From Gemmatimonadota bacterium (GTDB taxonomy: Bacteria; Gemmatimonadota; Gemmatimonadetes; Gemmatimonadales; Gemmatimonadaceae), in assembly GCA_026387915.1 (NCBI GenBank), contig JAPLKS010000007.1, forward strand, positions 62,001 through 126,000: DNA of 64,000 nucleotides. Reading direction: 5' to 3'. Below, in pieces: positions 768 through 21,527 of the stretch. The notes beneath the pieces are model-generated. The model saw only the letters and a list, made by a program, of their open reading frames with translations, ran no database searches and was not told the DNA's origin. The stretch's first letter is position 1. Each line of letters begins with the position of its first letter. Made by a program: the position numbers and the translations under genes.

Positions 768-1495
768 ACGCCGAAGCAACCGCTGCTGACCGCATTCTCG
801 TGGTGGACGATGAGCCCGACATCGTCGCCCTCGTGGTCTACCATCTGGCCAAGGCGGGCTACAAAGTTTCGTCGGCACAAACGGGGCCGGACGCGCTCGC
901 CATCGCGCGACGCGAACGACCGGCGTTGGTGATTCTCGACCTCATGCTCCCCGGCCTTTCGGGGTTTGAAGTCCTTGAGCAGCTGCGTGCCGACCGCGCC
1001 ACAAAGCACGTCGCCGTCCTCATGCTCACGGCGCGGCGCGAAGAGCCCGATCGCATTCGCGGTCTCACTTTGGGCGCGGACGACTACCTCACCAAACCGT
1101 TCAGCCCGCAAGAACTCGTGTTGCGGATTAGCGCCATTCTCCGTCGCACCTCCGGCGGGATGCCCACCGCCGATGTGATCACCATCGACACCATTGCCAT
1201 TGATCGATCGGCCCACCGCGTCACGCGCGACGGCGCTGAGATTGAGCTGACGCCCACGGAGTTCAAGCTCTTGCTCACGCTCGCCGAGCGGCGTGGGCGC
1301 GTACAGTCGCGCGGGCACTTGCTCGAAACCGTTTGGGAAGCGGCGCCCGACATTCAGACGCGCACCGTGGACATGCATGTGCAGCGCCTCCGCTCCAAAC
1401 TGGGCGACGAAGGCGAACTCATTGAGACGGTGCGCGGCTTTGGGTATCGCCTGCGGTCGCCGGACGGCACACCCCCTAGCAAGCTCGCGCGGTAG
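764..1495 (+). CDS. phoB: Phosphate regulon response regulator, PhoB/OmpR type
   Basis: 243 residues. Receiver domain (about 10-125) with acidic pocket VVDDEPD, phospho-acceptor Asp59 in ILDLMLPG and the conserved Lys in LTKPF, then an OmpR/PhoB winged-helix DNA-binding domain (about 145-235) with the LTPTEFKLL and [15 protein letters not shown] signatures. Predicted to bind 11-bp direct repeats when phosphorylated by the kinase encoded next. The location beside phoR, ppx, ppk, phoU and pst makes PhoB a firm reading. Starts inside the udk stop (4-bp overlap) and is followed 11 bp later by phoR. Confidence 0.93.
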
Positions 1496-1506
1496 CGGCA
1501 CCTTCT

Positions 1507-4994: not shown

Positions 4995-7184
4995 TTAGCC
5001 GAAGAGCTCGGCCCGTAGTTCACGCGGCACGGCGATTTCCCGAGACGCCGTCATACCATCGCGCAATCCCGCAGCGTCACGCGGCTGTGCCCAAGCGTCA
5101 CGCTGGAATGCACGGTGCGCCGCTTGTTCGCGCGCATCACCAGGGGTGCGTTGCACATACTGCCCGTCGGCGGTGAGTTCCCACGCGTTCCGGTTGTCGG
5201 TGAGGTACGTCTCAAGCACGGCCGACAACTTCGCATGCCAGCGCACATCTTCGATTGGCACGACTGCTTCCACGCGCCGGTCGAAGTTGCGCGGCATCCA
5301 GTCGGCGCTGCCGATGTAGTACTCTCCCGCTCCATCATTCGCAAAGAAACTCATACGCGAGTGCTCGAGATAACGCCCGACCACGCTGGTCACGCGAATG
5401 TTCTCGCTAAGCCCCGATACCTGCGGACGCAGGCAGCAAATGCCACGGACAATGAGATCGATGGCCACCCCCGCCTCCGACGCGCGGTATAGTGCGTCGA
5501 CGGTCTCCGCGTCCACGAGCGCGTTCATCTTGGCGATGATGCGCGCCGGACGCCCGTTCCGTGCGTGTTCGGCTTCACGATCAATCAGCTGGATCATCCG
5601 GTTGCGCAGGCCGCTCGGTGCGACCACCAGCTTGCGATACACGCGCTGCCGCGAGAATCCGGTGAGCATATTAAAGATGTCGCTCACGTCGGCGCCAATC
5701 GCTTCGCTGCACGTAAACAACCCCATGTCCGTGTAGACGCGCGCTGTTCGGGAGTTGTAGTTACCGGTGCCCATATGCACATAACGGCGGAAACCGTCGG
5801 GCTCGCGGCGCACCACCAACGCGAGCTTGGCATGCGTCTTCAGGCCAGGCACACCATACGCCACGTGTACGCCGAACGATTCCAGCTCGCGCGCGAAGTT
5901 GATGTTATTCGTTTCTTCGAAACGTGCCTGGAGCTCCACTAACACGGCCACTTGGATGCCGCGCTGCGCGGCCTGCGTGAGGGCGCGCACAATCGCACCG
6001 TCAGCGGAGGTGCGGTAGAGCGTCATCTTGATGGCGAGCGTGTTGTCATCGCGCGACGCCGCTTCGATGAACTGCTCCACTGTTGCGCCAAACGACTCAA
6101 ATGGGTGGTGCACGAGCAGGTCGCGCTCACGGATGACGTCGAAGATAGATCGTTCGGCGTCGCGGAGCTCCTGTGGCACCGCCGCTTGAAATGGCGGATC
6201 GCGGAGTTCAGGGAGATCGCGCGACGACAACGAGAGTAGCTCACCGAGGTCGAGCAGTGGCCCGGCGTCATACACTTCGCGTTCGCCGAGCTGTTCAAAC
6301 TCCGGATCTTCACTCTCGCGCAATTCTTCGAGCAGCAGCGCCCGGAGTTCGCTCGGCATCCCCGTTTGCACTTCCAAGCGCACGACTTCACCAAAGCGGC
6401 GCTGGAACACCTGCTCTTCGATCATAGCGAGCAGATCTTCCGGCTCCTCGGTATTCGAGACCTCAAGATCGGAATAGCGCGTGATGCGGAAGGTGTGCCA
6501 TCCCACCACCTGCATCCCGGGAAAGAGCCGACCGAGATGCGAGCCGATGACGGCTTCCATCGGCACGAACTGGTGCGGGCGCCCGTCCACTGGCACCCAG
6601 CGCGGGAGCGACTTCGGCACTTTGACGCGCGCGAAATGATCCGTCCCACGCTCGGGATCACGCAGTTCGACAGCGAGTGAAATACTGAGATTGGAGATGT
6701 ACGGGAATGGATGCCCAGGATCGACGGCGAGCGGCGTGAGCACTGGGTACACGTTGCGCTCAAAGAACGCATCAACCTGCTCGCGCTCGGGTCCTGAGAG
6801 CTCCGACATCGCCAAAAGGCGTACACCGTGCGCAGCCAGCGCCGGCAATAGTTGCTCATGCAGGCAGGTGCCCGCCTGTGCCAGCAGCTCCGCCACGCGT
6901 CGCTCCACGCGCTCCAACTGATCGCGCGCGGTGAGACCATCTGGCGGCGTCTGCTGCACGCGCGCCGATACTTGGCGACGCAGGCCGGCCACGCGCACCA
7001 TGTAGAACTCGTCGAGGTTCGAGCTGAAGATGGCAAGAAACTTCAGCCGCTCGAGCAGTGGGTTGCGCACGTCGAAGGCTTCGGCGAGCACCCGCGCATT
7101 GAACTCCAGCCACGACAGCTCGCGATTGAGAAAGCGCGAGGGTTGGGTGCGGAGATTCTGGTCTACGGCCTGCAACGTGCTCAT
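4995..7184 (-). CDS. ppk1: Polyphosphate kinase 1
   Basis: 729 residues, close to the family norm (about 690-740). Reversibly transfers the ATP gamma-phosphate to polyphosphate. Domain order is N (FLNRELSWLEFNARVL at the start, SNLDEFYMVRV), H, C1 and C2. The two active-site histidines are visible: His470 in HMGTGNYN, the autophosphorylated residue, and His608 in EHSRMS. SADWMPRNFDRRVE near the C-terminus is also diagnostic. Lies 52 bp downstream of phoU on the same strand, at the end of the pst-phoU run, so it is probably expressed with phosphate uptake. Confidence 0.96.
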   Translation of the reverse strand: MSTLQAVDQNLRTQPSRFLNRELSWLEFNARVLAEAFDVRNPLLERLKFLAIFSSNLDEFYMVRVAGLRRQVSARVQQTPPDGLTARDQLERVERRVAELLAQAGTCLHEQLLPALAAHGVRLLAMSELSGPEREQVDAFFERNVYPVLTPLAVDPGHPFPYISNLSISLAVELRDPERGTDHFARVKVPKSLPRWVPVDGRPHQFVPMEAVIGSHLGRLFPGMQVVGWHTFRITRYSDLEVSNTEEPEDLLAMIEEQVFQRRFGEVVRLEVQTGMPSELRALLLEELRESEDPEFEQLGEREVYDAGPLLDLGELLSLSSRDLPELRDPPFQAAVPQELRDAERSIFDVIRERDLLVHHPFESFGATVEQFIEAASRDDNTLAIKMTLYRTSADGAIVRALTQAAQRGIQVAVLVELQARFEETNNINFARELESFGVHVAYGVPGLKTHAKLALVVRREPDGFRRYVHMGTGNYNSRTARVYTDMGLFTCSEAIGADVSDIFNMLTGFSRQRVYRKLVVAPSGLRNRMIQLIDREAEHARNGRPARIIAKMNALVDAETVDALYRASEAGVAIDLIVRGICCLRPQVSGLSENIRVTSVVGRYLEHSRMSFFANDGAGEYYIGSADWMPRNFDRRVEAVVPIEDVRWHAKLSAVLETYLTDNRNAWELTADGQYVQRTPGDAREQAAHRAFQRDAWAQPRDAAGLRDGMTASREIAVPRELRAELFG

Positions 7185-7236
7185 GGTGAAATATCGCTCA
7201 GGGTCGTGCGCGGGGGGGGGCGATCAGCACGCCGAG

Positions 7237-7959
7237 TTAGCGCTCCTCGAAATTATGCTTGATTTGCTTGCCTTCGGCGAGGTAGACCGCGTCTTCGCCC
7301 ACATTGGTGGCTAAGTCCGCTACCCGCTCCAAGTTACGGCTCACCAAGAACAGTTCGAGGGCGGCGGTAATGGCCTTGGGATCCTCCAACACGTGCGTAA
7401 TCACGATGCGAAACACGGAGTCATTGAGGGCGTCCACCTGGTCGTCCATGGCGCAGACGGCACGGCCGAGCACGCCGTCAGCGCGCACGAACGCATCGAG
7501 CGCGTCGCTGAGCATGCGGCGCGCGCGGCGCGCCATATCCTCGATTTCCGGCGACGGCACGATGTCGCCGCGTAGCTGCGAGAGCCGGAGCGCCGACTGC
7601 GCAATGTTCACCGCATGATCGCCCACCCGCTCGAGATCACTGGAGATCTTGATGGTGCTGACGATAAAGCGCAGGTCGCGGGCCATCGGCTGTTGCAGGG
7701 CGAGCAGCGAAATGGCCAGCTGCTCCACCTCGACTTCGAGCTGGTCCATACGATGGTCGCCAATGATTACCGCTTCGGCCTTTGCGTCATCGCGATGCAG
7801 CAGCGCGTCCACCGCGAGCTCCACGAGCGACTCCGCTCGCTCTGACATCTCGAGAAGCAGTTGCTTGAGGTCGCGCAGCTGCTCGTGAAAATGCCGGAAC
7901 GCCGGCGGGCCTGCTGGCATTTCGCCCTCGGCCGCCGCGCGCGTGGTGTCCGTGTTCAT
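7237..7959 (-). CDS. phoU: Phosphate signalling protein PhoU
   Basis: 240 residues, all-helical, with two PhoU repeats. Each repeat carries a metal-binding E/DxxxD type motif: [11 protein letters not shown] and [14 protein letters not shown] in the first half, [17 protein letters not shown] in the second. PhoU couples the Pst transporter to PhoR and prevents signalling when phosphate is plentiful. Its start overlaps the end of the second pstB by 4 bp (7956-7959), the canonical pstB-phoU arrangement. A separate DUF47 PhoU-like protein at 20916-21527 partners the PiT transporter, so the two should not be confused. Confidence 0.95.
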
Positions 7960-8789
7960 CCAAACCTCCCGGTGATATAAGCTTCCGTCTGCGCTTCGCG
8001 CGGACTCGTAAACAATGCTGCGGTATTGCCGATTTCGATCAGGCGTCCCATAAAAAAGAACGCGGTGCGGTCCGACACACGGGCCGCCTGCTGCATGTTG
8101 TGCGTGACAATCACAATCGTCAGTTCACGCTTCAGCTCCACGAGGAGCTCTTCGATACGCTGTGTCGCGATTGGATCGAGCGCCGAGCATGGCTCATCCA
8201 TCAACAGCACTTCGGGGTCGTTCGCCAGCGCGCGCGCGATGCACAAACGCTGTTGCTGTCCACCGGAGAGCCCGATGGCCGATTCTCGAAGGCGATCTTT
8301 GACCTCCTCCCAGAGGGCGGCGCGACGCAGCGCCCCTTCTACCACTTCATCGAGTTTGGCACGGTCCGTTTCACCGTTGATGCGCGGACCAAACGCCACA
8401 TTCTCATAGATCGATTTGGGAAAGCAGTTCCAGCGCTGAAACACCATCCCCGTACGCTGGCGCAACGCCACGACATCGGTACCGCGCGCATAGATGTCGG
8501 CATCGTCGAGAAATATCTTTCCTTCGTGCCGCGTGCCGGGAATCAACTCATTCAACCGGTTGATGGAGCGCAAGAATGTGGACTTGCCGCAGCCCGACGG
8601 TCCAATGAACGCCGTGATCGACCGCGCCTGAATGTCCATCGTGATTTCGTGCAGCGCCTGTTTCTTGCCATACCAAAACGAAAAGGCGCTCGCGTCAATT
8701 AGTCCCGGCGTGCCGGGCACGCCAAAGCCGGTCGGCCGATCAAGGATCGGCTCGCGCACCATCTGTTCCGTCAACGAGCCGGGGCTCAC
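7956..8789 (-). CDS. pstB: Phosphate ABC transporter ATPase, second copy
   Basis: 277 residues from the GTG at 8789, which overlaps the stop of the upstream pstB (GTGA). An ATG at 8762 would give 268 residues and is an alternative. Walker [10 protein letters not shown], signature LSGGQQQRL, Walker [13 protein letters not shown] and switch [13 protein letters not shown] are all intact, as is the PstB C-terminal YITGRFG. The Q-loop neighbourhood ([19 protein letters not shown]) is closer to the classical PstB form than that of the first copy. Energises phosphate import through PstC/PstA at the inner membrane. Followed directly by phoU (4-bp overlap). Confidence 0.93.
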
Positions 8790-9604
8790 CCGAACCGTCC
8801 CGTGATGTAGGCTTCGGTTCGCGCGTCCGCGGGCGCCGTGAAGATCTTGGCCGTGGGGGCGCACTCCACCATTTCGCCATGCAGGAAGAACGCCGTGACG
8901 TCGGACACACGTGCCGCCTGCTGCATGTTGTGCGTCACCATCACGACCGCCACATCCTTCCGCAACTCGTACACCAACTCCTCGACACTCTGCGTGCTGA
9001 TTGGGTCGAGTGAGGCCGTCGGCTCGTCGAGGAGCAAGACCTCGGGGTCGGTGGCAAGCGCGCGGGCGATGCACAGCCGCTGTTGCTGCCCGCCGGAGAG
9101 ACCGGTGGCCGGCGCACCGAGGCGATCTTTGACTTCGTCCCACAGCGCCGAGCGGCGAAGCGCACGTTCGACAATCGCCTCGAGCTCACGCCCCGTCGGA
9201 CTGGGGCGATGCACCTTGAGCCCAGCGGCGACATTCTCGCGAATCGACATCGTCGGAAACGGCGTCGGCTTTTGGAACACCATCCCGACGTGCTTTCGAA
9301 TGGCGGTCGGATTGACGCGTGGATCAAAAATATCGTGGCCGTCGAGCAACACGCGCCCAGTCGCGGTGGCGCCACTCACGGTTTCGTGCATCCGATTGAG
9401 GCAGCGCAAGAAGGTGGACTTGCCGCAGCCCGACGGCCCGATGATCGCGGTAACGCGGTGGTCGAGCACGTCCATCGAGACATCCTTCACCGCTCGCTTG
9501 CCACTGAATGACGCCGAGAGTTCTTCCACGCGAATACGCGCGGCGACCGGCGCCTCATCGGCACCGCCGCGCTCCACGCGGAGCGTAGTGATCGGCCGGC
9601 TCAT
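8786..9604 (-). CDS. pstB: Phosphate ABC transporter ATPase, first copy
   Basis: 272 residues from the ATG at 9604, 16 bp after the pstA stop; further in-frame GTG codons upstream overlap pstA but add no family similarity. Complete ABC ATPase: [30 protein letters not shown] and [13 protein letters not shown], ending YITGRFG exactly like the second copy. It differs in the Q-loop region ([18 protein letters not shown]) and in an inserted HRPSPTG segment. The two tandem ATPases diverge enough to be old duplicates and could form homodimers or a heterodimer under one PstC/PstA pair. Confidence 0.93.
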
Positions 9605-9620
9605 CGTGGCCACGGGGCGC

Positions 9621-10568
9621 TCACTCACTGCCGCTGTCGACACGTGACTGCGTTGCCGCACGGGCGACGAGGCTGATGGTGAGCACAAGGGCAATGAGGA
9701 CGAGGGCGCCTGCCCAGGCCTGGCGATGCCAGTCTTCATACGGACTCACCGCGTATTGAAAGATCTGCAACGGGAGCGCTGCAATAGGCTTGTTGAGCGA
9801 GTACGAGCGAAACTGATTGCCGAGCGCCGTAAACAACAACGGCGCGGTTTCGCCAGCGATACGGGCAATGGCGACGAGCGCTCCCGTCACGATTCCCGCC
9901 GTGGCCGTGCGGAGCACCACCGTGATTGCCGTACGCGAACGCGAATACCCCAACGCGAGCGCGGCTTCACGGAGTGACTGCGGCACGAGCCGAACCATTT
10001 CCTCCGTCGTCCGCGTCACCATCGGCACGAGCATCGCGGCCAACGCGACGGCACCGGCCCACGCCGAGAAGTGCCCCAGCGGACGCACTAGGAACTCCCA
10101 CGCAAAAATGCCCATCACAATCGACGGCAGGCCGTTGAGCACATCCGCCAAGAAGCGCACCACGGTGGCAAGCTTGGTGGCGCGTCGTTCGGCGACATAC
10201 AGCCCCGCCCCGATGCCAATCGGCATGCCGATGGCCGCGCCAACACCCACCACCATCAGCGTGCCGAGGATGGCATTCGCCATACCGCCGCCGACCTCAC
10301 CCACGGACTTTGGATCCTGCGTGAAGAACGCCACGTTGAGCGACGACAACCCCGAACGCCCGAGGTGATACACAATGAGCACGAGCGGAATTACAGCGAT
10401 CACCGCAGACAGCGCGAGCAACGTCACCATAATCGCATTCACCACGCGGCGGCGGCGAAGCGTGCGCGCGGTGCGGGCCACCGCATTCCGCTGCCGCGCG
10501 CTCGGCCGCGTCTCACGCGCGTCATGCGCGTTCAGCGAGCCGGCGGGCACCGTCTGCAGCGGACTCAT
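9621..10568 (-). CDS. pstA: Phosphate ABC transporter permease PstA
   Basis: 315 residues. Inner-membrane channel subunit with about six hydrophobic segments and the BPD_transp_1 EAA-type loop ([22 protein letters not shown]). The N-terminal 45 residues are polar and Arg-rich before the first helix (about 50-70). I chose the ATG at 10568 because it overlaps the pstC stop by 4 bp (ATGA); an upstream ATG would run far into pstC. The motif [14 protein letters not shown] is typical of PstA. Acts with PstC, PstB and PstS in high-affinity phosphate import. Confidence 0.94.
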
Positions 10569-11572
10569 GCCACCTTCCGTGTACCGCCGCTCGTCTGCCA
10601 CACGAGCCAGCGGGCCACAAAATTCACCAACAACGTGATCACGAAGAGCACAAAGCCCACGGCCATCAACGCCGAGAGATGCATATCGCCCGAGGCTTCG
10701 GCAAACTCGTTGGCGATGAGCGATGCAATGGTGTAACCGGGAGCGAAGAGCGAGGCGGCAATCTCGTGGCGGTTGCCGATGACCATCGTCACCGCCATCG
10801 TCTCGCCGAGCGCGCGTCCTAGGCCGAGGATGATGCCGCCAATGATTCCAGAGCGGGCAAAGGGCAACACCGCCCCGACGATCGCCTCCCAGCGCGTGGC
10901 ACCGAGCGCCAGCGCTGCTTCACGCTGTGACCGCGGCACGGCAAGCAACACTTCGCGCGAAACCGAAGAGATGTACGGCAGGATCATGATCGCCAGCACG
11001 ACACCGGCGGCGAGCATCGACGGCCCGTATGCCGGGCCACTGAAGAACGGCGTGGCACCCAAGTGCAGCGTGTCGCGCAGAAAGGGCATCACCGTTTCGC
11101 GCAGCGCGGGCACGAGCACAAAGATTCCCCACAGCCCGTAGACCACGCTGGGAATAGCGGCGAGCAAATCAATCAAAAAGCCAACGGGCTGACGCAGCCA
11201 GCGCGGGGCAAACTCGGCCACGAAGATAGCGACGCCAATCGCGAGCGGCGTCGCGATCACCAACGCAATCACCGACGACACGATGGTGCCGTAAATGGCC
11301 GGCGCGGCGCCAAAATGCTCGGCGGCGGGGTCCCAGTCACTTGAGGTCAAAAACCCGAAGCCGAAGTGCTTGAGCGCTGGCCATGCCGCCATCGTCAGCG
11401 CGATGATGAGCAGGACCAACAGCAACGGCACACACATCGCGAACGCCGTGAGCACGGCGTCGTAGATACGATCCGACCACCCGCCGCCCTGAAGGTCCTG
11501 CCCGTCGATGGCAGTATTCGGGGTCCCCTGGCCGGAATCAGGCAATGGGGCGGCGGCGTTCGAGGGCGTCAT
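10565..11572 (-). CDS. pstC: Phosphate ABC transporter permease PstC
   Basis: 335 residues. About six membrane segments after a polar N-terminus of roughly 35 residues. Family signatures are the periplasmic WDPAAEHFGAAPAIYGT segment, IPSVVYGLWG and the EAA loop [17 protein letters not shown]. Forms the transmembrane channel with PstA. It lies 90 bp downstream of the porin gene; a strong hairpin in that gap (11595-11622) would stop most readthrough, so pstCABB-phoU may need its own promoter or rely on partial readthrough from pstS. Confidence 0.94.
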   Translation of the reverse strand: MTPSNAAAPLPDSGQGTPNTAIDGQDLQGGGWSDRIYDAVLTAFAMCVPLLLVLLIIALTMAAWPALKHFGFGFLTSSDWDPAAEHFGAAPAIYGTIVSSVIALVIATPLAIGVAIFVAEFAPRWLRQPVGFLIDLLAAIPSVVYGLWGIFVLVPALRETVMPFLRDTLHLGATPFFSGPAYGPSMLAAGVVLAIMILPYISSVSREVLLAVPRSQREAALALGATRWEAIVGAVLPFARSGIIGGIILGLGRALGETMAVTMVIGNRHEIAASLFAPGYTIASLIANEFAEASGDMHLSALMAVGFVLFVITLLVNFVARWLVWQTSGGTRKVA

Positions 11573-11622: not shown

Positions 11623-11662
11623 TCCCCGGTACAGACTCGTGACAGAGTGGCGGTCCGACGGG

Positions 11663-12868
11663 CTAGAACGCCGCCGAGAGGTGCAGGAAGAGCACGTTCG
11701 TCTGGACCACCTGGGAACCGCTCGCACGTCCCAGATTCTGGATATCGAGCGACAGCGAGGTCTTCTGGTTCAGGTCGTAAATGATGCCGGCGATCAGCTG
11801 CTGGTTGGCCGCAGAGGTCGTCTGGGTCCCCGTGGCCGAACGCTGGTCGGAGTACGGCTTGAAGTTGTCGAGGCGGGCAAAGAGCTGCAGCGGCGACTTG
11901 TCCTTCGGCTCGGCGATCTCAAAGGGCCGGACGAGCACAAACGCCGAGGTCAGGGTGCCGCTGTTGGTGTAGGTGCCGCGGGCCGAGGCGGCGGTGTTCG
12001 CGCCGGTCTCGATCGTTTCGGTGCGCTGAGCAAACTCGGCGCCCGCCGTAAAGCGGCGGTCCTTGATGCCCGCGAACACGCCATAGCGGTTACGGTTGAG
12101 CGCGTCGCTGACCGTACCCACCTGGCCGGTGCCGCCGTTCTGGAACTTCGAAGCGGTGGAACCGAGGTACGCCCAGGGCGAAATCGTGAAGGTCTTCAGG
12201 AACCCGCTCTCGGCGCCGAACGGCGTCAGCGAGATGCGCGCCGACATGTCCTTGAAGCGGTCGGTCTCAGCGGCGCCGTAGCCCGGACCGTTAGCGATGC
12301 TGGCGTAGATCTCGCCCCATTTGTTCGGGAGCGTCACGAGGCCGGCGACGCCGACGTCGGACGAGGAGAAGAATCCATTGCGCTCGGCGGCCACCTGCGA
12401 CACCCAACGCGGCCAGAACCCTTCTTCGTGATCGATGAGCGAGGTGTGCAGCATGCCGAAGCGCGCCGTGGCGTTGAAGCCTTTCTCGCCGCCGATGTCA
12501 TGCAGGAAGTTGTACTGGAAGTAGGCGTACTTGAGGCGAATGGTCCACCCCGGGTAGTAGCCGTTCGTAGCGGCGGTCGTGTTGTTGAACACGTCCGTCG
12601 AGACGCGAATGCTGCCATCATCGCCGGCCGGCATGCGGAAGTTCAAATACACGCGTTCCACGTCGAACTTATTCGCGGCGTTGCCCGCGTTGCCCGCTTT
12701 GGCCGCCGAGTCCGATGCGTAGCGATAATTGGCGAGAATGACGCCGGAGAAGTCGAGCGCCGGAGTGACCGGCTTGACGTCCTGCGCAAGGGCGGACTGC
12801 CCGGAGAGGAGCGTCACTGCCGCAATCGTGGCGAGCAAGCCGCGGCGCAGCGTCGTCGAGAAAGTCAT
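11663..12868 (-). CDS. Outer-membrane porin of the phosphate cluster
   Basis: 401 residues from the ATG at 12868; a longer open frame upstream adds only non-signal sequence. An N-terminal signal peptide (RRGLLATIAAVTLLSG, cut near ALAQ) precedes alternating amphipathic strands with many aromatic residues, ending in a C-terminal Phe (LHLSAAF) as expected for a BamA-recognised beta-barrel. The pattern with EEGFWPRWVSQVA recalls phosphate-selective porins O/P and related families, but I rely mainly on position: it lies between pstS and pstC, 43 bp after pstS. Likely role is diffusion of phosphate or phosphate esters into the periplasm. A general porin is the alternative. Confidence 0.75.
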   Translation of the reverse strand: MTFSTTLRRGLLATIAAVTLLSGQSALAQDVKPVTPALDFSGVILANYRYASDSAAKAGNAGNAANKFDVERVYLNFRMPAGDDGSIRVSTDVFNNTTAATNGYYPGWTIRLKYAYFQYNFLHDIGGEKGFNATARFGMLHTSLIDHEEGFWPRWVSQVAAERNGFFSSSDVGVAGLVTLPNKWGEIYASIANGPGYGAAETDRFKDMSARISLTPFGAESGFLKTFTISPWAYLGSTASKFQNGGTGQVGTVSDALNRNRYGVFAGIKDRRFTAGAEFAQRTETIETGANTAASARGTYTNSGTLTSAFVLVRPFEIAEPKDKSPLQLFARLDNFKPYSDQRSATGTQTTSAANQQLIAGIIYDLNQKTSLSLDIQNLGRASGSQVVQTNVLFLHLSAAF

Positions 12869-12911
12869 GAGTCTCTTGGTTCGTGAGAGGACTGAGCGAG
12901 CGACGCGGCCG

Positions 12912-13949
12912 TTACTTGGCGACCGCGATGGATGCCACACGCGCCTTCACCTGCTTCACCACGGCGGAGGGGAGCGGCGCATAGTCGAGCCCAGCAGCCG
13001 TCGCCTGTCCATCGACCAACATCCAGTTCAGGAAGTCCACCAACTTCTTGCCCTTGGCGGCATCGGCCTGCTTCTGGTAGACCAGCAACCACGTCATCGA
13101 AGCAATCGGGTACGCGCTCTTGCCCGGCGCGTTGACGATCGACACGCGGAAGTCGGTGTCCTTCGGCAGGCCCTTGGCCACGCCCGCAGCGGCGTCGGTG
13201 ATCGTCTCGGTGGACGCCGTCACGAAGTTGCCGGAAGCGTTCTTCACGGCGCCGAACGAGATCTTGTTCTGACGCGCGTAGATCAGTTCCACATAGCCAA
13301 TGGCGCCGGGAAGCTGCTGGACCTGACCGGCCACGCCTTCGTTGCCCTTACCACCCAAACCAACGGGCCACTTCACATCCTTGCCCTTGCCCGGCCCCTT
13401 CGCCCATTCGGGGCTCACGGCGGTCAGGTAGTCGGTCCAGATGTAGGTGGTGCCGCTACCGTCGGAACGGTGCACGACGAGAATGTCCTGCGCAGGAAGC
13501 GCCTCACCCTTGTTGATCGCGGTGATGCGCGGGTCGTTCCACTTAGTGATTTTGCCGAGGAAGATGTCGGCGATCACATCGCCGCTGAACTTGAGCTGTC
13601 CCTTGGCGCCCGGCACGTTGTACACGACGACCACACCGCCCATGACGGTCGGGATGTGGAGGATCGGGCCGCCCTTGGCCTTCCCCATTTCGTCATCGCT
13701 CATCGGGCCGTCGGTCGCGCCAAAGTCCACCGTCTGCTCGGAGATCTGGCGCACACCGCCGCCGGAGCCGATCGACTGATAGTTGATCTTCACACCGCTC
13801 TTCGCGGCGTAATCGTTGAACCACTTCGAATACACAGGATACGGAAACGTGGCGCCGGCGCCGGTGAGGTCCTGCGCGGCAGCGGGAAGAACGGCGCCTG
13901 CGATACCCAGCAAGGCGAGCGCGGCGGAACGGAAGGCACGAAGAGTCAC
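12912..13949 (-). CDS. pstS: Periplasmic phosphate-binding protein PstS
   Basis: 345 residues. Signal peptide at about 1-25 (AALALLGIAGAVLPAAAQ, Sec type). The mature protein begins with the hallmark GAGATFPYPVYSKWF, and the phosphate-cage segments SIGSGGGVRQ, DFGATDGPM and VHRSDGSGTTYIWTDYL are present. Binds phosphate in the periplasm and delivers it to PstCA. The order pstS-porin-pstCABB-phoU-ppk on one strand suggests one regulon. Upstream lie two minus-oriented 11-bp direct-repeat arrays, the proximal one about 50 bp before the start, which I read as Pho boxes. Confidence 0.96.
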   Translation of the reverse strand: MTLRAFRSAALALLGIAGAVLPAAAQDLTGAGATFPYPVYSKWFNDYAAKSGVKINYQSIGSGGGVRQISEQTVDFGATDGPMSDDEMGKAKGGPILHIPTVMGGVVVVYNVPGAKGQLKFSGDVIADIFLGKITKWNDPRITAINKGEALPAQDILVVHRSDGSGTTYIWTDYLTAVSPEWAKGPGKGKDVKWPVGLGGKGNEGVAGQVQQLPGAIGYVELIYARQNKISFGAVKNASGNFVTASTETITDAAAGVAKGLPKDTDFRVSIVNAPGKSAYPIASMTWLLVYQKQADAAKGKKLVDFLNWMLVDGQATAAGLDYAPLPSAVVKQVKARVASIAVAK

Positions 13950-13999: not shown

Positions 14000-14037
14000 G
14001 TCACGGTGTTGCGAGTTCGCGGTAACGGACGAGTAAC
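14000..14037 (-). promoter_or_regulatory. Pho-box array A (pstS)
   Basis: Read on the minus strand: GTTAC, GTTAC, CTCGC and GTGAC, starting exactly every 11 bp (plus-strand positions 14033, 14022, 14011, 14000). PhoB-type regulators bind head-to-tail repeats with 11-bp period. The pentamer resembles the GTTCACC (Streptomyces) and TTAACA-like (Bacillus) PhoP repeats more than E. coli CTGTCAT. The third unit is degenerate. The array ends about 50 bp before the pstS start. Confidence 0.75.
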
Positions 14038-14168: not shown

Positions 14169-14206
14169 GTCACGGCGAAGCCTCGCGCCCGTAACGGGGA
14201 CGTAAC
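14169..14206 (-). promoter_or_regulatory. Pho-box array B (pstS distal)
   Basis: Same architecture and orientation as the proximal array: minus-strand GTTAC (14206-14202), GTTAC (14195-14191), a degenerate unit (14184-14180) and GTGAC (14173-14169), each 11 bp apart. Repeating the same order of two good units, one poor and one GTGAC argues against chance. Could be a distal pstS site or a second pstS promoter. Confidence 0.65.
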
Positions 14207-14237: not shown

Positions 14238-14275
14238 GTTACGTCGCCGTTGCACGTCCGACACATCGCTGTCGC
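14238..14275 (+). promoter_or_regulatory. Pho-box array C (TonB receptor)
   Basis: Plus-strand units GTTAC (14238), GTTGC (14249), GACAC (14260) and GTCGC (14271), spaced exactly 11 bp and pointing toward the TonB-receptor gene that starts at 14343. Weaker than the pstS-facing arrays, with only the first two units close to consensus, but the phase is exact and the GACAC third unit recurs in the array at 17132-17158. Confidence 0.55.
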
Positions 14276-14342
14276 AAAGCGATGAGAAACTTCTGCGTTG
14301 CCAGCGCGCGCGGTGTTCGCGCCGCTCCTACTGGAGAACTCT

Positions 14343-17120
14343 ATGACTCGTCGCACGATCCTCGGCGTCCTGCTTCTTCTTGCAGTCGTGTCGCACCGCT
14401 CGGCCGCGCAGGCGCTTCCCAGCGGCCGCATTACTGGCCGCGTCATCGACGCGGCCACGGGGCATGCGCTACACGATGTGGTCGTTCAAGTGGTCGGCAC
14501 GACGCTCGGAGGGGCCACCAACGTCGACGGGCGGTATCGCCTGCAAGGGGTCGTGCCGGGCACGGTGACGCTGTATTTCCGCCGCATCGGCTATGCCGCA
14601 AAGACGGTCACGGGGCTTATGCTCGCGCCCGGCTCGAACCTCGAGCAGGATGTCGCGCTTCCGCCCGCGTCGGCGGCACTGGCCGAAATCGTCGTCACGG
14701 CGAGCGCCGAACGCGGCACCATCAATGAAGCGGTGGACCAGCAGCGCACGGCCACCGGCGTCGTGAACTCCATCACCGCGGAGCAGATTGCCAAGAGCCC
14801 AGACGGCAACGCCGCGCAGGCCGTCCAGCGCGTGAGTGGCGTGACGGTGACGGACGGCCGTTACATCGCCGTGCGCGGACTTGGCGAACGCTACACGACG
14901 AGTTCCCTGAACGGCGCGCGCGTCCCGAGCCCGGAACCGGAAAAGCGCATGGTGCCGCTCGATCTCTTCCCCGCCGGACTCGTGCAGTCCATCACGACCT
15001 CCAAGACCTTCACGCCGGACCAGCAGGGCGACTTTTCCGGTGCGCAGGTGGACATCAAGACGCGCGAATTTCCGGCGCGGCGTAGCTGGTCACTGAACCT
15101 CGGCAGCGGTTACGAATCCGACGCGACGGGCGCCAGCATTCTCAGCCCAGGCACGAGCGGTGGCGAAGGCATGGCGATGGTGAACCATGGGCGTGACTTG
15201 CCGTCGCTCGTGGAGTCGGTGGGCAATTTCGCGGGGCGCACACTGTCGCAGGGCGACAAGAACCTGCTCGTGAGTCAGTTCCGCAACTCGTGGATGCCGA
15301 AGGCCGCGACCGGCGCGCCGCTCGTCAACGGGTCGTTTTCGTTCGGTGGCAACGACCCGTTGCTGTTCGGCCACCGTCTCGGATATCTGCTTTCGGCGAC
15401 GATCAGCTCGTCGACGGACAGGAAGAACAACCAGGTGCGCGCGCTCGCCGACCGCGGCCCCGTGCGCGGCGAAACGATCGAACTCGACAAGTTCACCGGG
15501 GAGAGCGCACAGCAGAGCGTGTTATGGGGAGGACTTGCGAACCTGAGCACGATGATCGGCAACGGCTCGCGCCTTTCCATTAATACTTTATACAACCGCA
15601 CGGCCGACAACACCGCGCGCATCGAAACCGGCTACCTGAGCGCCAACGACAACCGCGCCAAGATTACGCGCATGCAATACGTAGAGCGTGCGGTGCATTC
15701 CCTGCAGCTGGCCGGCGACCATCAGTTCGGCGACCGGCATCACGTCGAGTGGGCAGGCACGGTGAGCGGCGTGCGCCGCTCCGAGCCGGACAAGTCGGAG
15801 TTCGTGCAGGTGATCGAGCGGGACACACCGGCCGGCCCGGACGTGCTGCGCTGGTTCGGCAGCGGCAACGGCGGCGCGGTCCGCACGTTCTCGGACCTCG
15901 CGGAAAACAGCCGGGAGTTCAGCGCCAAGTACGCCCTGTCGTTCGGCGACGCCGGTCGCCAGTCGACGGTGAAGATCGGCACGCTGCTCCGGTCGACGGA
16001 CCGCAGCGCCGACAATCGCGCCTTCAATATCAATGGCCGCGGGCTGTCGAACGCCACGCGCGAACTCGCGCCCGAACAACTGTTTGACGGTCGCTTCACG
16101 CAGGCGACCTCGGCGGTGTTCGACATCGGCCCGCTGTCACAGGGCGGTGCGTACGATGCCCACGACCAACTGTCGGCGACGTTCGCGATGGCCGAGGTGC
16201 CGGTCGGCACGCGGCTCCGCGTGATCGGCGGGGCGCGCTACGAACTCGACCACCTTGGCGTGAACGCGACGTCGACGCTCGGCCGCTCGGTGAGCACACG
16301 AAAAGTCTGGGCCGACGTGCTGCCGTCCCTCGCGGTGAACTACAAGCTCACCGAGACGCAGCAGCTGCGCCTGGCCGCGTCGCGCACGCTGGCGCGCCCC
16401 GAGTACCGTGAGCTGTCGCCGATCATCAGCCGCGACGTGGTGGGCGGCGACGATCTGCAGGGTGACGAAAACCTCAAGCGCACCAACGTCACGAACGTGG
16501 ACGTGCGATGGGAATGGTATCCGAACGCCGGCGAGTTGATCAGCATCGCGGTCTTCGGGAAGCAGTTCACAAACCCTATCGAACGCGTCTATCGCGCGTC
16601 GTCGAGCGCGCGTCAGGTGCTGTACGCGAACGCCGAACGCGCCGACAACTTTGGCGTGGAACTCGAAGCGCGGAAGGATCTCGGCTTCCTCGGCCGCCCA
16701 TTGGCGCCGTTCGCTGTATTCAGCAACGTCACCGTGATGTCGAGCCAGATTCACCTCTCGGCGGCCGCGGGCGCGAGCCTCACGAACTTGAGCCGCCGCA
16801 TGGTGGGGCAAGCTCCCTATGTGATCAATGGCGGGTTGACATACACCAGTAACCGCGGCTCGTCGACGGCCACCCTGCTGTTCAACCGGGTGGGCGAACG
16901 CATCGACGTGGCCGGAGAGTCTCCGTTGCCTGATGTGGTGATCAAGCCGCGCAACGTCATGGATCTCTCGCTCCGCCTCGGCGTCACCGCCGCGGTGACG
17001 ATTCGCGCGGACGTGCGCAATCTGCTTGACGCGCCCTACGAGACCATGCAGGGAACGGTAACGCGCGAGCGGTATCTGGCGGGCCGCACCATTCAGGCGG
17101 GCGTGCAGTTCCGGCCGTAG
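14343..17120 (+). CDS. TonB-dependent outer-membrane receptor, probably Pho-regulated
   Basis: 925 residues from the ATG at 14343, which has GGAG at 14333-14336. A signal peptide (about 1-22, ends near SAAQA) is followed by a carboxypeptidase-regulatory-like Ig domain (ITGRVIDAATGHAL ... DGRYRLQGV, about 30-105), a plug domain (about 130-250, with AVQRVSGVTVTDGRYIAVRG and LNGARVPSPEPEKR) and a beta-barrel ending in FRP. No SusD-type partner follows; instead a beta-helix lipoprotein does. Pho-box-like repeats precede both genes, so uptake of phosphate, phosphate esters or polyphosphate is a reasonable inference; the substrate cannot be read from the sequence. Confidence 0.88.
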   Translation: MTRRTILGVLLLLAVVSHRSAAQALPSGRITGRVIDAATGHALHDVVVQVVGTTLGGATNVDGRYRLQGVVPGTVTLYFRRIGYAAKTVTGLMLAPGSNLEQDVALPPASAALAEIVVTASAERGTINEAVDQQRTATGVVNSITAEQIAKSPDGNAAQAVQRVSGVTVTDGRYIAVRGLGERYTTSSLNGARVPSPEPEKRMVPLDLFPAGLVQSITTSKTFTPDQQGDFSGAQVDIKTREFPARRSWSLNLGSGYESDATGASILSPGTSGGEGMAMVNHGRDLPSLVESVGNFAGRTLSQGDKNLLVSQFRNSWMPKAATGAPLVNGSFSFGGNDPLLFGHRLGYLLSATISSSTDRKNNQVRALADRGPVRGETIELDKFTGESAQQSVLWGGLANLSTMIGNGSRLSINTLYNRTADNTARIETGYLSANDNRAKITRMQYVERAVHSLQLAGDHQFGDRHHVEWAGTVSGVRRSEPDKSEFVQVIERDTPAGPDVLRWFGSGNGGAVRTFSDLAENSREFSAKYALSFGDAGRQSTVKIGTLLRSTDRSADNRAFNINGRGLSNATRELAPEQLFDGRFTQATSAVFDIGPLSQGGAYDAHDQLSATFAMAEVPVGTRLRVIGGARYELDHLGVNATSTLGRSVSTRKVWADVLPSLAVNYKLTETQQLRLAASRTLARPEYRELSPIISRDVVGGDDLQGDENLKRTNVTNVDVRWEWYPNAGELISIAVFGKQFTNPIERVYRASSSARQVLYANAERADNFGVELEARKDLGFLGRPLAPFAVFSNVTVMSSQIHLSAAAGASLTNLSRRMVGQAPYVINGGLTYTSNRGSSTATLLFNRVGERIDVAGESPLPDVVIKPRNVMDLSLRLGVTAAVTIRADVRNLLDAPYETMQGTVTRERYLAGRTIQAGVQFRP

Positions 17121-17131
17121 CACCCGAGGTC

Positions 17132-17172
17132 GTGACGGTGTCGTGACGGTGACGACACCGGACGAATACACT
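17132..17172 (+). promoter_or_regulatory. Pho-box array D and possible -10 (beta-helix lipoprotein)
   Basis: GTGAC at 17132, GTGAC at 17143 and GACAC at 17154, exactly 11 bp apart, with an additional overlapping GTGAC at 17149. Eight bases later is TACACT (17167-17172), a passable -10 hexamer at the distance expected for a PhoB-activated promoter that lacks a -35. Points to the lipoprotein gene starting at 17266. Confidence 0.6.
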
Positions 17173-17188
17173 TGGGCATTTGTTTTGA

Positions 17189-17220
17189 GGGCGGAGCGGC
17201 GCTGGTGCGCCGCTCCGCCC
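17189..17220 (+). terminator. Strong hairpin between TonB receptor and lipoprotein
   Basis: Perfect 13-bp inverted repeat (17189-17201 with 17208-17220, loop CTGGTG) followed by TGTTTCAT. It may terminate the TonB-receptor transcript. Because it lies downstream of the putative Pho promoter at 17132-17172, it would also sit in the 5' leader of the lipoprotein mRNA, where it could act as an attenuator or stabilising structure. Confidence 0.6.
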
Positions 17221-17265
17221 TGTTTCATACGACACCCACCGCATCCATCACACCGAGGTTTTCGC

Positions 17266-19008
17266 ATGTCCGTGTCCCGTCGAGCGCTGACAACCGCGTT
17301 GGCATTCATTTCGTTCGTCGCCGCGTGCAGCAGCGACAAGACTACCGCTCCATCGGCGCCGAACCCAGTGCTCGGCGCGTCCGCGTCGGCCAAGAGCGCC
17401 AGTTCGGTGCAGGTGACGTTCGCCAGCGTCGCCGGTGATGTGAGCTACGATCTCGAGCGCGCCGAGGGCGCGACGGGCACGTTTGCCGCGGTCACGAACA
17501 TCGCCGCGCCGGCCACCGCCGGTGTGGTGAACTACACCGACGCGAACCTCAAGGTGAGCACGTTGTACAGGTACCGCCTGTATGCGAACAAGAACAGTCT
17601 AAAGAGCATCGCGTCGGGCGAGTTCACGGCGACGACGCTGGCGTTCGGCAACGCCGCCGCGACGATCAACACCGACATCACGGCGAACCGCACGCTCTAC
17701 GCCGACACCGCCTACACGCTGCAGGGCTTCATCCACGTGGCCAACGGCGCCACGCTGACCATCCAGCCCGGCACGACGATCAAGGGCGACTTCAACACGG
17801 TGGGCTCGTCGCTCTTCGTGCTGCGCGGCGCCAAGATTCAGGCCGTGGGCACGGCGGACGCTCCGATTGTCTTCACGTCGTCGCGCGCCGCCGGCCAGCG
17901 TCAGCCCGGTGACTGGGGCGGCCTGCTGATCATCGGCAACGCCATCGACAACCGTAGCGGTGTCGTGAACATCGAAGGCACCGGCACAGACGGCGCGACG
18001 GTCGCCGGCGGCAAGAACTACTTCGTTCAGTACAACGGCGGCACGGTCGCCACCGACAACTCCGGCACATTGCAGTACGTGCGCGTCGAGTTTGGCGGCT
18101 ACGCGACGCTGATCGATCAGGAGTTCAACGCCTTCACGTTCGCGGCGGTGGGTTCGGGCACGCGCGTGTCGTACACGGAAGCGATGGCCGGCCTCGATGA
18201 CTCGTACGAGTTCTTCGGCGGCGGCTTCGATATCGACCACATCGTCGCCTACGAAACGGCAGACGACATGTTCGACATGTCCGAAGGCTGGTCGGGGCGC
18301 ATGCAGTTTCTGATCGGCTACAACTCGGTGCAGCTGACGCCGCGCACCGGCGCGGGCTTCTATTCGGTGGACATTGAAGGCATCGAAAATGACGGCTGCA
18401 ACGGCACCGGTTGCGACCTCGGCTTCAACACCGCGCCGTTCACCATTCCGCTGGTCGCCAACTTCACGATGATCGGCTGCGGCGATTTGGCCTGCTCCGG
18501 CACGGGCGGCGGCTACGGCCTGATGCTCCGCCGCGGCACGGGCGGCTTCTACGTGAACGGCGTCGTCTCTCGCTGGGCGCGCGCCGGTATCTCACTGCGT
18601 GACAGCCTCACGTACGTGCGCGCCGGTTCCGCGGCGACCCCGGATCTCGCCACGACGGATCTCGCCGTGCGCAATATTCTCTTCTCCGAAGTGCCCAGTG
18701 TCTTCCAAGCGTCGTCGGCCACGCAGAACGCGTTCGACCTCGCGGGCAACAGCCTCGTGAACAGCTCGGCGCTGACCGCGTCGCTGTTCACTCTGATCCC
18801 GGCCACCGGCGTGGCACCGACCAGCCCGTCCTCGTTCGACTTCTCTCCGGCTGCCAACTCGCCGATCGCGACGGGCGGCATGGCAACATTCACCGGTAAG
18901 ATCCTGACGAAGGCCGGCTCGTTCGTCGTACCGACCGCGTACATGGGCGCCGTGGCTCCCGGCGGAACAAAGTGGTGGCAGGGTTGGACGGCGTACACCC
19001 GCAACTAG
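17266..19008 (+). CDS. Beta-helix surface lipoprotein next to TonB receptor
   Basis: 580 residues from the ATG at 17266 (GAGG at 17255-17258). Lipoprotein signal with lipobox VAAC and lipidated Cys21. Residues about 35-125 look like a fibronectin type III-like domain (SSVQVTFASVAGDVSYDLER, YRYRLYANKNS). The remainder is Gly/Thr/Val-rich with short repeating turns (LTIQPGTTIKGD, GDWGGLLIIGNA, VEFGGYA), as in right-handed parallel beta-helix proteins. Four cysteines cluster in DGCNGTGCDLGF and GCGDLACSG and may form disulfides. No catalytic motif is recognised. Similar lipoproteins often accompany TonB receptors and may bind or process substrate at the surface. Preceded by its own Pho-box-like array. 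Confidence 0.75.
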   Translation: MSVSRRALTTALAFISFVAACSSDKTTAPSAPNPVLGASASAKSASSVQVTFASVAGDVSYDLERAEGATGTFAAVTNIAAPATAGVVNYTDANLKVSTLYRYRLYANKNSLKSIASGEFTATTLAFGNAAATINTDITANRTLYADTAYTLQGFIHVANGATLTIQPGTTIKGDFNTVGSSLFVLRGAKIQAVGTADAPIVFTSSRAAGQRQPGDWGGLLIIGNAIDNRSGVVNIEGTGTDGATVAGGKNYFVQYNGGTVATDNSGTLQYVRVEFGGYATLIDQEFNAFTFAAVGSGTRVSYTEAMAGLDDSYEFFGGGFDIDHIVAYETADDMFDMSEGWSGRMQFLIGYNSVQLTPRTGAGFYSVDIEGIENDGCNGTGCDLGFNTAPFTIPLVANFTMIGCGDLACSGTGGGYGLMLRRGTGGFYVNGVVSRWARAGISLRDSLTYVRAGSAATPDLATTDLAVRNILFSEVPSVFQASSATQNAFDLAGNSLVNSSALTASLFTLIPATGVAPTSPSSFDFSPAANSPIATGGMATFTGKILTKAGSFVVPTAYMGAVAPGGTKWWQGWTAYTRN

Positions 19009-19022
19009 TAGGCGCTAGCTTT

Positions 19023-19061
19023 GGGAAGCGGCCAGCGTCCTCGCGGGCGCTGGCCGCTTCC
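19023..19061 (+). terminator. Hairpin after beta-helix lipoprotein gene
   Basis: Perfect 14-bp stem (19024-19037 with 19048-19061) and a 10-base loop, starting 15 bases after the stop codon. No clear T-run follows; the next bases are C-rich with a direct repeat CCACTCCGCC (19071-19090). Probably a terminator or mRNA-stabilising end. Confidence 0.6.
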
Positions 19062-19095
19062 GCACCCTCCCCACTCCGCCCCACTCCGCCCCAGC

Positions 19096-19779
19096 ATGCT
19101 CCGTTGCAACGTTCGACCGATCCTCTGCCTCGTCACGGCCGCCCTCCTCTCCGGATGCGCTGCCCCCGCGGACCGCAGCGCCGCGCGTGGATTGCTGCCG
19201 GCTGCGGATTCGGCGCGCCGAGACTCCATCGCCCGCGCCCAGCAGGATTCTCTCAACCGCACCATGCCCGGCTACGTCGTGGACTCGATACTCCCCGTGG
19301 CAGAGCAGGTGCGCCGGTTCGCAGCGCAGCTTCGCGAGGCGCCGGTCGCTGAACTGCAGGGGGCAAGCCAGTCGCGCGACGCCCTCGTGAAGCGCTTCGT
19401 TCAGGCCGTGGTGGCCGCCGATTCCGCCGACCTGCTCGCGATGGCGCTCACCGCGCGCGAGTTCATTGACCTCGTCTATCCCGAATCACCCGCCACGCAC
19501 CCGCCATACCAACAGGATCCGGCACTGGTGTGGCGCACGATTCAGAACCCGAGCGTCTCCGGATTCAAGCGGCTCGTGCGCCGGGCCGGCGGCATTCGCA
19601 TGACGCTGGCCGATTACGCCTGTGATCCCGCAGCGCAGCAAGGGAAGAACCGCCTGTGGGCCAATTGCCGGCTTCGGCTGGTCGGCGCCACAGGCGACAC
19701 CACGACGCACCGATTCTTCGGCACGATTCTCGAACGGAACGGCCGCTTCAAGATCATCTCGTTCAAGAACGAGTTCTGA
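19096..19779 (+). CDS. Putative lipoprotein of unknown function
   Basis: 227 residues from the ATG at 19096. Signal with lipobox LSGC and Cys21, then a helical, Arg/Asp/Ala-rich stretch (about 25-75) and a mixed domain containing four aromatic and charged blocks (AREFIDLVYPESPA, NPSVSGFKRLVRRAGG, HRFFGTILERNGRFK). I do not recognise a family. It sits between the beta-helix lipoprotein and the PiT transporter and ends at a shared bidirectional terminator, so it may belong with the outer-membrane phosphate genes, but nothing in the protein proves that. Confidence 0.75.
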   Translation: MLRCNVRPILCLVTAALLSGCAAPADRSAARGLLPAADSARRDSIARAQQDSLNRTMPGYVVDSILPVAEQVRRFAAQLREAPVAELQGASQSRDALVKRFVQAVVAADSADLLAMALTAREFIDLVYPESPATHPPYQQDPALVWRTIQNPSVSGFKRLVRRAGGIRMTLADYACDPAAQQGKNRLWANCRLRLVGATGDTTTHRFFGTILERNGRFKIISFKNEF

Positions 19780-19868: not shown

Positions 19869-20906
19869 CTATGATCCCGGCAACGCCGCCGACAGCAGCA
19901 GGAATGCGATGGCTGCGATCATCCCGGCCATCGGAATAGTGAGCACCCACGCCCACAGGATGCGCCGCGCCAGTCCCCAGCGCACGCCGGACAGCCGGTT
20001 CGTCGCACCGACGCCGACGATCGCACCGGTAATCGTGTGCGTGGTGCTGACCGGAATTCCAAAGTGCGACGCAGCAAAGATCACAATCGCCCCACCCGTC
20101 TCCGCGCAGAACCCACCCACCGGCCGCAGCCGCGTGATGCGCGAGCCCATCGTGTGCACAATGCGCCATCCACCGAACAGCGTGCCGAGCGAAATACAGG
20201 TATAGGCCGCGAGCTTCACCCATACGGGAATCGCGTCGAAGGTCTCGACGAACAGATAGCGCCCCCAGCCGGTCTCGTTGCGAAACGTTTCTTTTGACGC
20301 GACGAGCAACCCGACGATAATCCCCATCGTCTTTTGCGCGTCGTTCGTGCCGTGGGCCAGCGAGAGCCACGCCGAGGAGATCAACTGCCCCGGACGGAAC
20401 AGCTTATCGATGCGGCGTGGCGTCACCTTCTGGAACAGGTTGAACACCAGCGCCATCAGCGCAAACCCAATGAGCATCCCGAACAGCGGCGAAAGCGCGA
20501 TCGCGGAGAGCGTCTCGATCCACTTCCGCCCCCACAGCAATCCGCTGATGCCGGCTTTGGCCACCGCTGCGCCCGAAAACCCACCGATGAGCGCGTGCGA
20601 CGAACTCGACGGAATGCCGAAATACCAGGTAAACAAATTCCAGACAATCGCGCCCAGCAGACCGGCAAAGATCACGTTCGGCGTGACGATCGACTGCGCC
20701 ACGAATCCACCGCTCACGGCCTTGGCCACCGCCGAGCTGCCGAAGAACACCGCCGCGAAGTTGAACGTCGCCGCCCACAGCACCGCCGCAAACGGCGAGA
20801 GCACGCGCGTGCCCACGATGGTGGCAATGGAGTTAGCCGAATCGTGAAAGCCGTTGATGAAGTCAAAGGCAAACGCGAACAGGATGATGATCACAACGTA
20901 CGTCAT
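19869..20906 (-). CDS. pit: Low-affinity inorganic phosphate transporter, PiT family
   Basis: 345 residues, polytopic inner-membrane protein. The family's duplicated signature is visible: GFHDSANSIATIVGTR at about 19-34 and LAHGTNDAQKTMG at about 181-193, plus the repeated GIPSSSSHALIGG and GIPVSTTHTITGA halves. Couples phosphate (as metal phosphate) entry to the proton gradient. The DUF47 gene ends 9 bp upstream on the same strand, the usual two-gene pit operon. Complements the high-affinity Pst system encoded nearby. Confidence 0.94.
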   Translation of the reverse strand: MTYVVIIILFAFAFDFINGFHDSANSIATIVGTRVLSPFAAVLWAATFNFAAVFFGSSAVAKAVSGGFVAQSIVTPNVIFAGLLGAIVWNLFTWYFGIPSSSSHALIGGFSGAAVAKAGISGLLWGRKWIETLSAIALSPLFGMLIGFALMALVFNLFQKVTPRRIDKLFRPGQLISSAWLSLAHGTNDAQKTMGIIVGLLVASKETFRNETGWGRYLFVETFDAIPVWVKLAAYTCISLGTLFGGWRIVHTMGSRITRLRPVGGFCAETGGAIVIFAASHFGIPVSTTHTITGAIVGVGATNRLSGVRWGLARRILWAWVLTIPMAGMIAAIAFLLLSAALPGS

Positions 20907-20915
20907 CCGCGACGC

Positions 20916-21527
20916 TCAGCTGTTCTTGAGGGCAATGCTCTCGAGCACGTTCAACACGTCGTCCGCTTCGTCAATCGCGTGCTCAATATTGTCGTACAGT
21001 TCCTTCCACTTGATCACCTCAAGCGCGTCCGGCTTGCCCTCAAACAGCGCGCCGACCGCTGCCGAGTAGATGGCATCCGCTTCTTCCTCAAGCTTTTTCA
21101 CGTCGCGCCCAATGAGCGCGACCTTGTGCGAATCTCGAACTGATGTCACCGCCTGAGCGATGGCCTCGGTGGCCTGCAGCAAAACGCGGGTGAGTTCCTT
21201 CGCCGGTTCCTTGCGGTCGGCGAGGTGGAACATCTGCGCGCGACGTGCCGTGCCGTCCATGAGATCCACCACGTTGTCGAGGCGCGACGCCAGGAGATGG
21301 ATGTCCTCGCGATCGAGCGGCGTCACGAAGCTCCGGTCGATGCGGTTCATAATCTCGTGCGTGATTTCGTCCGCTTGGTGTTCGAGCTCTTTGATTTGCG
21401 CCGCATAGTGATCGAGGCGCGTGGGCTCCGTGAAGAGCGCATTGAGCAGGGCAGCCGAGCGGGTCATCAGCACCGCTAAGCCGTCGAACATTTCAAAAAA
21501 GCCTTCGTCTTTCGGAATGAGACGCAC
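20916..21527 (-). CDS. DUF47 family PhoU-like protein, partner of PiT
   Basis: 203 residues, predicted all-helical with the PhoU-like metal motifs EHQADEITHEI and ASRLDNVVDLMD in the first half and DNIEHAIDEADD near the end. The N-terminus (LIPKDEGFFEMF) is characteristic of DUF47 proteins, which sit upstream of PiT transporters and are thought to regulate them. Translated first in a two-gene operon with pit, with 9 bp between them. Distinct from the true PhoU at 7237-7959. Confidence 0.92.
   Translation of the reverse strand: MRLIPKDEGFFEMFDGLAVLMTRSAALLNALFTEPTRLDHYAAQIKELEHQADEITHEIMNRIDRSFVTPLDREDIHLLASRLDNVVDLMDGTARRAQMFHLADRKEPAKELTRVLLQATEAIAQAVTSVRDSHKVALIGRDVKKLEEEADAIYSAAVGALFEGKPDALEVIKWKELYDNIEHAIDEADDVLNVLESIALKNS

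Follow-up and report, generated by a model that had tools for sequence, protein, structure and literature searches.

A TonB-dependent receptor and an ElpS-family lipoprotein beside the pst genes of a Gemmatimonadota bacterium, under predicted phosphate control

What might a TonB-dependent receptor followed by two lipoproteins do beside the genes for phosphate uptake? The question is raised by a 64,000-nucleotide stretch of a 3.58-Mb Gemmatimonadota genome (contig 7, 62001-126000; hereafter the window), in which a receptor gene (TBDT) diverges from pstS and precedes genes for lipoproteins of 580 and 227 residues (LP1 and LP2). The initial annotation described these three open reading frames with the lengths and orientation that we also find, and proposed that they form a phosphate-starvation-induced uptake unit that does without SusD. 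PHO boxes, synteny with Pho genes and strict co-inheritance support that proposal, but nothing found supports its more specific part, the import of phosphate esters or polyphosphate. Judged from its sequence and gene order, the pair formed by the receptor and LP1 is a Pho-regulon pair of the ElpS/CC0171 type of Caulobacter crescentus; homologous systems have been described, though they are poorly understood, and the pair is hence not new. The three genes are as follows.

14343..17120, + strand: TBDT, TonB-dependent receptor, 925 residues from ATG; signal peptide; CarboxypepD_reg, Plug and barrel domains (Pfam)
17266..19008, + strand: LP1, ElpS-family lipoprotein, 580 residues; lipobox ...FVAAC, Cys21; Fn3 domain (about 30-127) and right-handed beta-helix (about 127-505 and beyond)
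19096..19779, + strand: LP2, lipoprotein, 227 residues; lipobox ...LLSGC; C-terminal NTF2/cystatin-like domain (tentative)

PHO boxes and co-inheritance

An E. coli-type PHO box is a pair of 7-bp direct repeats spaced at a period of 11 bp. The 11-bp repeat arrays that had been noticed ahead of the receptor and LP1 were confirmed and identified as PHO boxes, so that this feature of a PhoB regulon is present in the promoters. Four boxes of the strict form (GTNAC-N6-GTNAC) lie in the window, at 14022, 14191, 17132 and 21632, and every one precedes phosphate genes. The boxes at the triad and the pst operon, and a further match at the left edge of the window, are listed here.

17132..17147, strand not assigned: PHO box GTGACGGTGTCGTGAC, 11-bp period, upstream of LP1
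14191..14206, strand not assigned: PHO box GTAACGGGGACGTAAC, in the pstS/TBDT intergenic region, with a 1-mismatch copy at 14238-14253
14022..14037, strand not assigned: PHO box GTAACGGACGAGTAAC, pstS-proximal
11628-11645: PHO-box match CTGTCACGAGTCTGTACC, at the pst operon (pstC, pstA and pstB genes)
54..71, - strand: PHO-box match CTGTCACGGTTCTGTATC, 2 mismatches, preceding the gene of a 5'-nucleotidase, just beyond the window edge

Across the whole genome, the strict box is found at chance level (26 copies in 3.58 Mb, compared to 37 for the reversed pattern), and several of the 15 strict-box loci inspected have the site inside a gene. For these reasons, it marks Pho promoters by clustering and conservation alone. 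Clustering is seen in the window, where 4 of the 26 copies fall within 7.6 kb. Conservation is seen in 20 regions of related genomes, in which GTNAC pairs at a distance of 11 numbered 36. Two periods apart (22) there were 17, and any other distance gave 1-12. In these relatives, strict boxes lie some 80-140 bases ahead of most LP1 and TBDT starts. Within the window lineage they were found at 10 of 17 LP1 promoters, 7 of 15 TBDT promoters and 0 of 15 LP2 promoters; for LP1 and TBDT combined, this makes 17 of 32, with 0.1 expected from shuffles. Allowing up to 2 mismatches, 15 of 50 Pseudomonadota promoters (start codons approximated) match the canonical PHO-box consensus, which was not derived from the window; one match is perfect, and shuffles gave 0.3. 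A PHO-type box was also seen between divergent genes for a GT4 glycosyltransferase and a type I phosphodiesterase (L180 site 2959, G000:C10:22958), which suggests Pho-controlled lipid remodelling there.

When LP1 was sought in 61 related genomes, 20 matched, one of which (G056, E 9e-4) was taken as spurious. The receptor (E < 1e-60) is present in exactly the 19 genomes with a genuine LP1, and LP2 is present in 18 of these, with the presence and absence of LP1 and TBDT scattered even inside the genus. The small hypergeometric value for this co-occurrence is not a true probability, since related genomes are not independent. Fifteen fetched loci of related genomes carry the complete triad in the same order. 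The co-occurrence with Pho genes that the initial annotation had proposed to check is also seen: phoBR, pst, ppk/ppx or pit genes lie in the fetched flank of 15 of the 19 other LP1 regions of the lineage. Among the four loci with no adjoining Pho genes, three (L029, L031 and L035) have a strict box preceding LP1, and L035 has a glycerophosphodiesterase gene nearby. Variants of the arrangement occur as well, with an extra, receptorless LP1 copy adjoining phoBR/ppx in L042 and two LP1 copies flanking LP2 in L038. The L029 and L031 triads adjoin genes resembling engB-clpX-clpP-tig; the window, too, has tig-clpP, some 7 kb downstream of its triad.

For other bacterial groups, we examined 88 loci gathered by tblastn on plasmid records and by one named-genome scan; the scan used a single motif, DD[GSA][IYF]E[WFI][FW]GG, and the best 80 of 593 were taken, so that the sample is not random. 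Relatives of LP1 were found in Sphingomonas, Brevundimonas, Xanthomonas, Alteromonas, Shewanella, Chitinophaga, Hymenobacter, Bacteroides, Planctomycetota and others, and a TBDT of the same family lies at most 1.5 kb from the LP1 homologue in 79 of the 88 loci (Pseudomonadota, Bacteroidota, Planctomycetota and others). The flanks contain type II secretion genes in 22 loci, phosphate genes in 17 and ExbD/TonB genes in 10. The gene order in Alteromonas is phoB-phoR-pstS-like-oxygenase-LP-TBDT-DUF3450-exbB, and in Alteromonas, Salinimonas and Colwellia relatives the pair has its own adjoining ExbB/ExbD/TonB genes. Within the Brevundimonas family, the pair adjoins gsp genes in some genomes and pst in others, phosphate genes being adjacent in L171 and L177. 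In the Bacteroidota loci of this sample, the usual order is TBDT and then the lipoprotein, with no LP2. Together, the PHO boxes, the Pho synteny and their conservation give strong support to the predicted control of the receptor and LP1 by phosphate.

The lipoproteins and the receptor

The AlphaFold2 model of LP1 (pLDDT 91.4) consists of an Fn3 domain and a right-handed beta-helix, as the initial annotation had read from the sequence, and the fold was confirmed by structure search. The nearest solved folds are tailspikes, the pectate lyase Pel9A (Z 20.8, 312 aligned), a PL6 lyase and polygalacturonases (Z 17-19); by this comparison, the fold resembles that of polysaccharide-binding and -cleaving beta-helix proteins. 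Pfam and NCBIfam assigned no family to LP1, to LP2 or to a porin-like protein encoded nearby, and PDB sequence searches with LP1 and LP2 returned nothing useful. The reported lack of SusD holds: with LP1 modelled as Fn3 plus beta-helix and neither lipoprotein in a Pfam family, no SusD-fold lipoprotein was found in the triad.

Across 26 homologues, the acidic residues D264, E286, D311/D312 and D333/D334 of LP1 are 92-100% conserved, and the intervals between them (22, 25 and 22 residues) correspond to roughly one turn of the helix. This ladder may be a site for a metal, for binding or for catalysis. The four cysteines near 18400-18500 do exist (378, 383, 405 and 410), and the initial annotation took them to suggest a folded binding or processing platform. 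We rejected the platform, as a single pair, 378/383, is conserved, and solely in the window lineage; 405/410 occur in 3 of the 26 homologues, and the cysteines are not a feature of the family.

The TBDT, for which the family alignment held 22 sequences, is the sole full-length match of the CC0171-like receptor type in the window genome. It scored 260 bits with TIGR01782, under the cut-off of 310, and 49.8 bits with the SusC/RagA model, well short of 368.25; within NCBIfam it is distantly similar to haem and SusC models.

LP2 probably has an NTF2/cystatin-like fold in its modelled C-terminal part, on a weak match (no Foldseek hit with E < 0.001; best VIA Z 9.3). LP2 had no match in the 88 loci from other sources and was found solely in the window lineage, and it is presumably an accessory, lineage-specific lipoprotein. 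The gap between LP1 and LP2 contains a strong, G+C-rich inverted repeat (gcggccagcg...cgctggccgc) at 19022-19062, possibly an attenuator or a terminator without a T run.

A capture-and-import model and its rivals

We imagine that, when phosphate is low, PhoB would bind the PHO boxes with their 11-bp period and turn on the receptor and LP1. The lipid-anchored LP1 would be the outer-membrane partner of the receptor, and its beta-helix may capture, and possibly trim, some molecule that bears phosphorus and is most likely of larger size or a polymer. This molecule would be passed to the receptor and imported with TonB energy, and the periplasmic 5'-nucleotidase and other phosphatases would free phosphate from it for PstSCAB. 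We infer the complex of LP1 with the receptor, the position at the surface, the phosphorus in the ligand and the order of these steps, and we judge the capture-and-import model of an ElpS/CC0171-type Pho-regulon system at the outer membrane to be, as a whole, on balance probable. A bolder form would see here a cross-phylum, SusD-independent, Pho-controlled mode of TonB import, in which the stacked acidic site of LP1 binds or cuts a phosphorus polymer at the surface (e.g., extracellular nucleic acid, phosphorylated glycan or polyphosphate), the receptor imports the pieces and LP2 serves as a lineage-specific third subunit; taken in full, this strikes us as rather doubtful.

Several observations weigh against capture and import. 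The papers cited here on ElpS and its Flavobacterium relatives report no ligand, binding or uptake for any member. In Caulobacter, intracellular phosphate was unchanged, ElpS was tied to extracellular alkaline phosphatase activity, and the expression of CC0171 was reported as constitutive (PMC2996285). Outside the window lineage, 71 of the 88 loci have no phosphate genes in the examined flank, and Bacteroidota promoters give a weak PHO-box signal (6 of 26 at 3 mismatches, compared to 1.7 expected with 3 or fewer).

The link of ElpS to phosphatase activity fits a rival that places the action of LP1 outside the receptor: it would mainly activate or anchor secreted phosphatases, as proposed for ElpS, with the receptor loosely connected. 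Extracellular alkaline phosphatase activity rises when ElpS is overproduced (PMC2996285), and the type II secretion genes beside the pair in 22 loci point the same way. However, a single receptor type is paired with LP1 across phyla and shares its presence and absence among relatives, which is hard to explain without direct cooperation, and the type II secretion-like locus of the window genome is unlinked to the triad, lying on contig C17; we think this rival quite improbable. It is somewhat less improbable, though still unlikely, that LP1 is itself a surface beta-helix lyase or hydrolase, cutting a phosphorus polymer or the glycan that holds it, with the receptor importing the fragments. The best structural matches (Pel9A, polygalacturonases and tailspike proteins) would suit such an enzyme, as would conserved acidic residues one turn apart, which are expected of a stacked acidic site. 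Nevertheless, a shared fold shows no function, no named enzyme family's catalytic set was matched, the ladder could instead be calcium-binding or structural, and ElpS itself showed no phosphatase activity (PMC2996285).

It also has to be asked whether the place beside pst is incidental. TonB-dependent receptors usually import iron, B12 or carbon sources, and the TBDT has the distant similarity to haem and SusC models noted above. Yet PHO boxes and Pho synteny recur in many loci. Pairs with iron, B12 or sugar genes instead of pst, which the initial annotation had named as counter-evidence, were not what we found; among 89 neighbour proteins, mostly from Bacteroidota loci, the top families held no recurrent iron, B12 or sugar genes and no dominant enzyme, the commonest being metallophosphoesterases with merely 3-4 members. 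We disfavour this explanation as very improbable.

The surrounding genes and known systems

The phosphate block occupies the first 21.6 kb of the window and extends leftward past its edge into a tandem 5'-nucleotidase gene. Its order is udk, phoB, phoR, ppx, ppk1, phoU, two pstB, pstA, pstC, porin-like, pstS, the triad, pit and DUF47, with these assignments:

764..3219, + strand: phoB-phoR; TIGR02154, 248.8 bits; PhoR-type kinase; both under equivalog cut-offs
4995..7959, - strand: ppk1 and phoU; family-library match
7956..11572, - strand: pstC, pstA and two pstB genes; assigned by sequence features and synteny
11663..12940, - strand: porin-like candidate between pstS and pstC; no Pfam or NCBIfam match, putative function
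12912..13949, - strand: pstS; TIGR00975, 403.9 bits; divergent from TBDT
19869..21527, - strand: operon of a PiT phosphate permease (PHO4) and PhoU_div/DUF47 (Pfam); PHO box at 21632-21647

The porin-like gene is conserved in relatives L023 and L028. Two consecutive genes for pstB-type ATPases (7956-9739) share one pst operon, as they do in L027, L033 and L034. The 5'-nucleotidase gene, predicted to be secreted, lies just left of the window at G000:C7:59198-61975 and diverges from udk-phoB-phoR.

Outer-membrane uptake of organic phosphorus in bacteria is poorly understood, and a conserved pair that bears PHO boxes in distantly related groups, among them bacteria common in soil and water, offers a concrete, testable candidate for the uptake step. 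The initial annotation missed that a phosphate-starvation receptor and lipoprotein without SusD had homologues in print. ElpS (CC0170) is a surface lipoprotein, produced solely under phosphate starvation and accessible to proteinase K on cells, and its gene adjoins that of the TonB receptor CC0171 and gsp genes (Le Blastier et al., PMC2996285); the Caulobacter PhoB regulon takes in type II secretion and several TonB receptors (PMC11208175). The ElpS-related lipoproteins FI, FII and FIII of Flavobacterium johnsoniae (PUSIII, PUSIV) are strongly induced by phosphate depletion, FI being clustered with a co-induced TBDT/SusC-like porin and FII lying in a phoBR cluster (Lidbury et al., PMC8115612).

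Window LP1 and a Brevundimonas member in an LP-TBDT-gsp arrangement share 30% identity across 438 residues (E 4e-30), and Brevundimonas, Sphingomonas and Xanthomonas loci share the published ElpS/CC0171/gsp order. Through these members of the Brevundimonas family (Caulobacteraceae), LP1 belongs to the same lipoprotein family as ElpS, with a same-family TBDT adjacent and signs of phosphate-starvation control. It differs in that the window pair adjoins pst/pho genes, not type II secretion genes, and in two variant features, the added N-terminal Fn3 domain of LP1 and the third lipoprotein, LP2, that follows. The Flavobacterium lipoproteins, by their published description, are alike in the link to low phosphate and in their kinship to ElpS. 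SusC-SusD and PusCD resemble the window system in having a TonB receptor with a CarboxypepD_reg domain that works with a lipoprotein, whereas LP1 is a predicted beta-helix and not the helical SusD fold. Our findings thus join the separate Caulobacter and Flavobacterium reports into a widespread, consistently paired system with, in this lineage, a third component; what is new is the presence of the pair in this lineage beside pst, the consistency of the pairing, the PHO boxes across groups and the lineage-specific lipoprotein.

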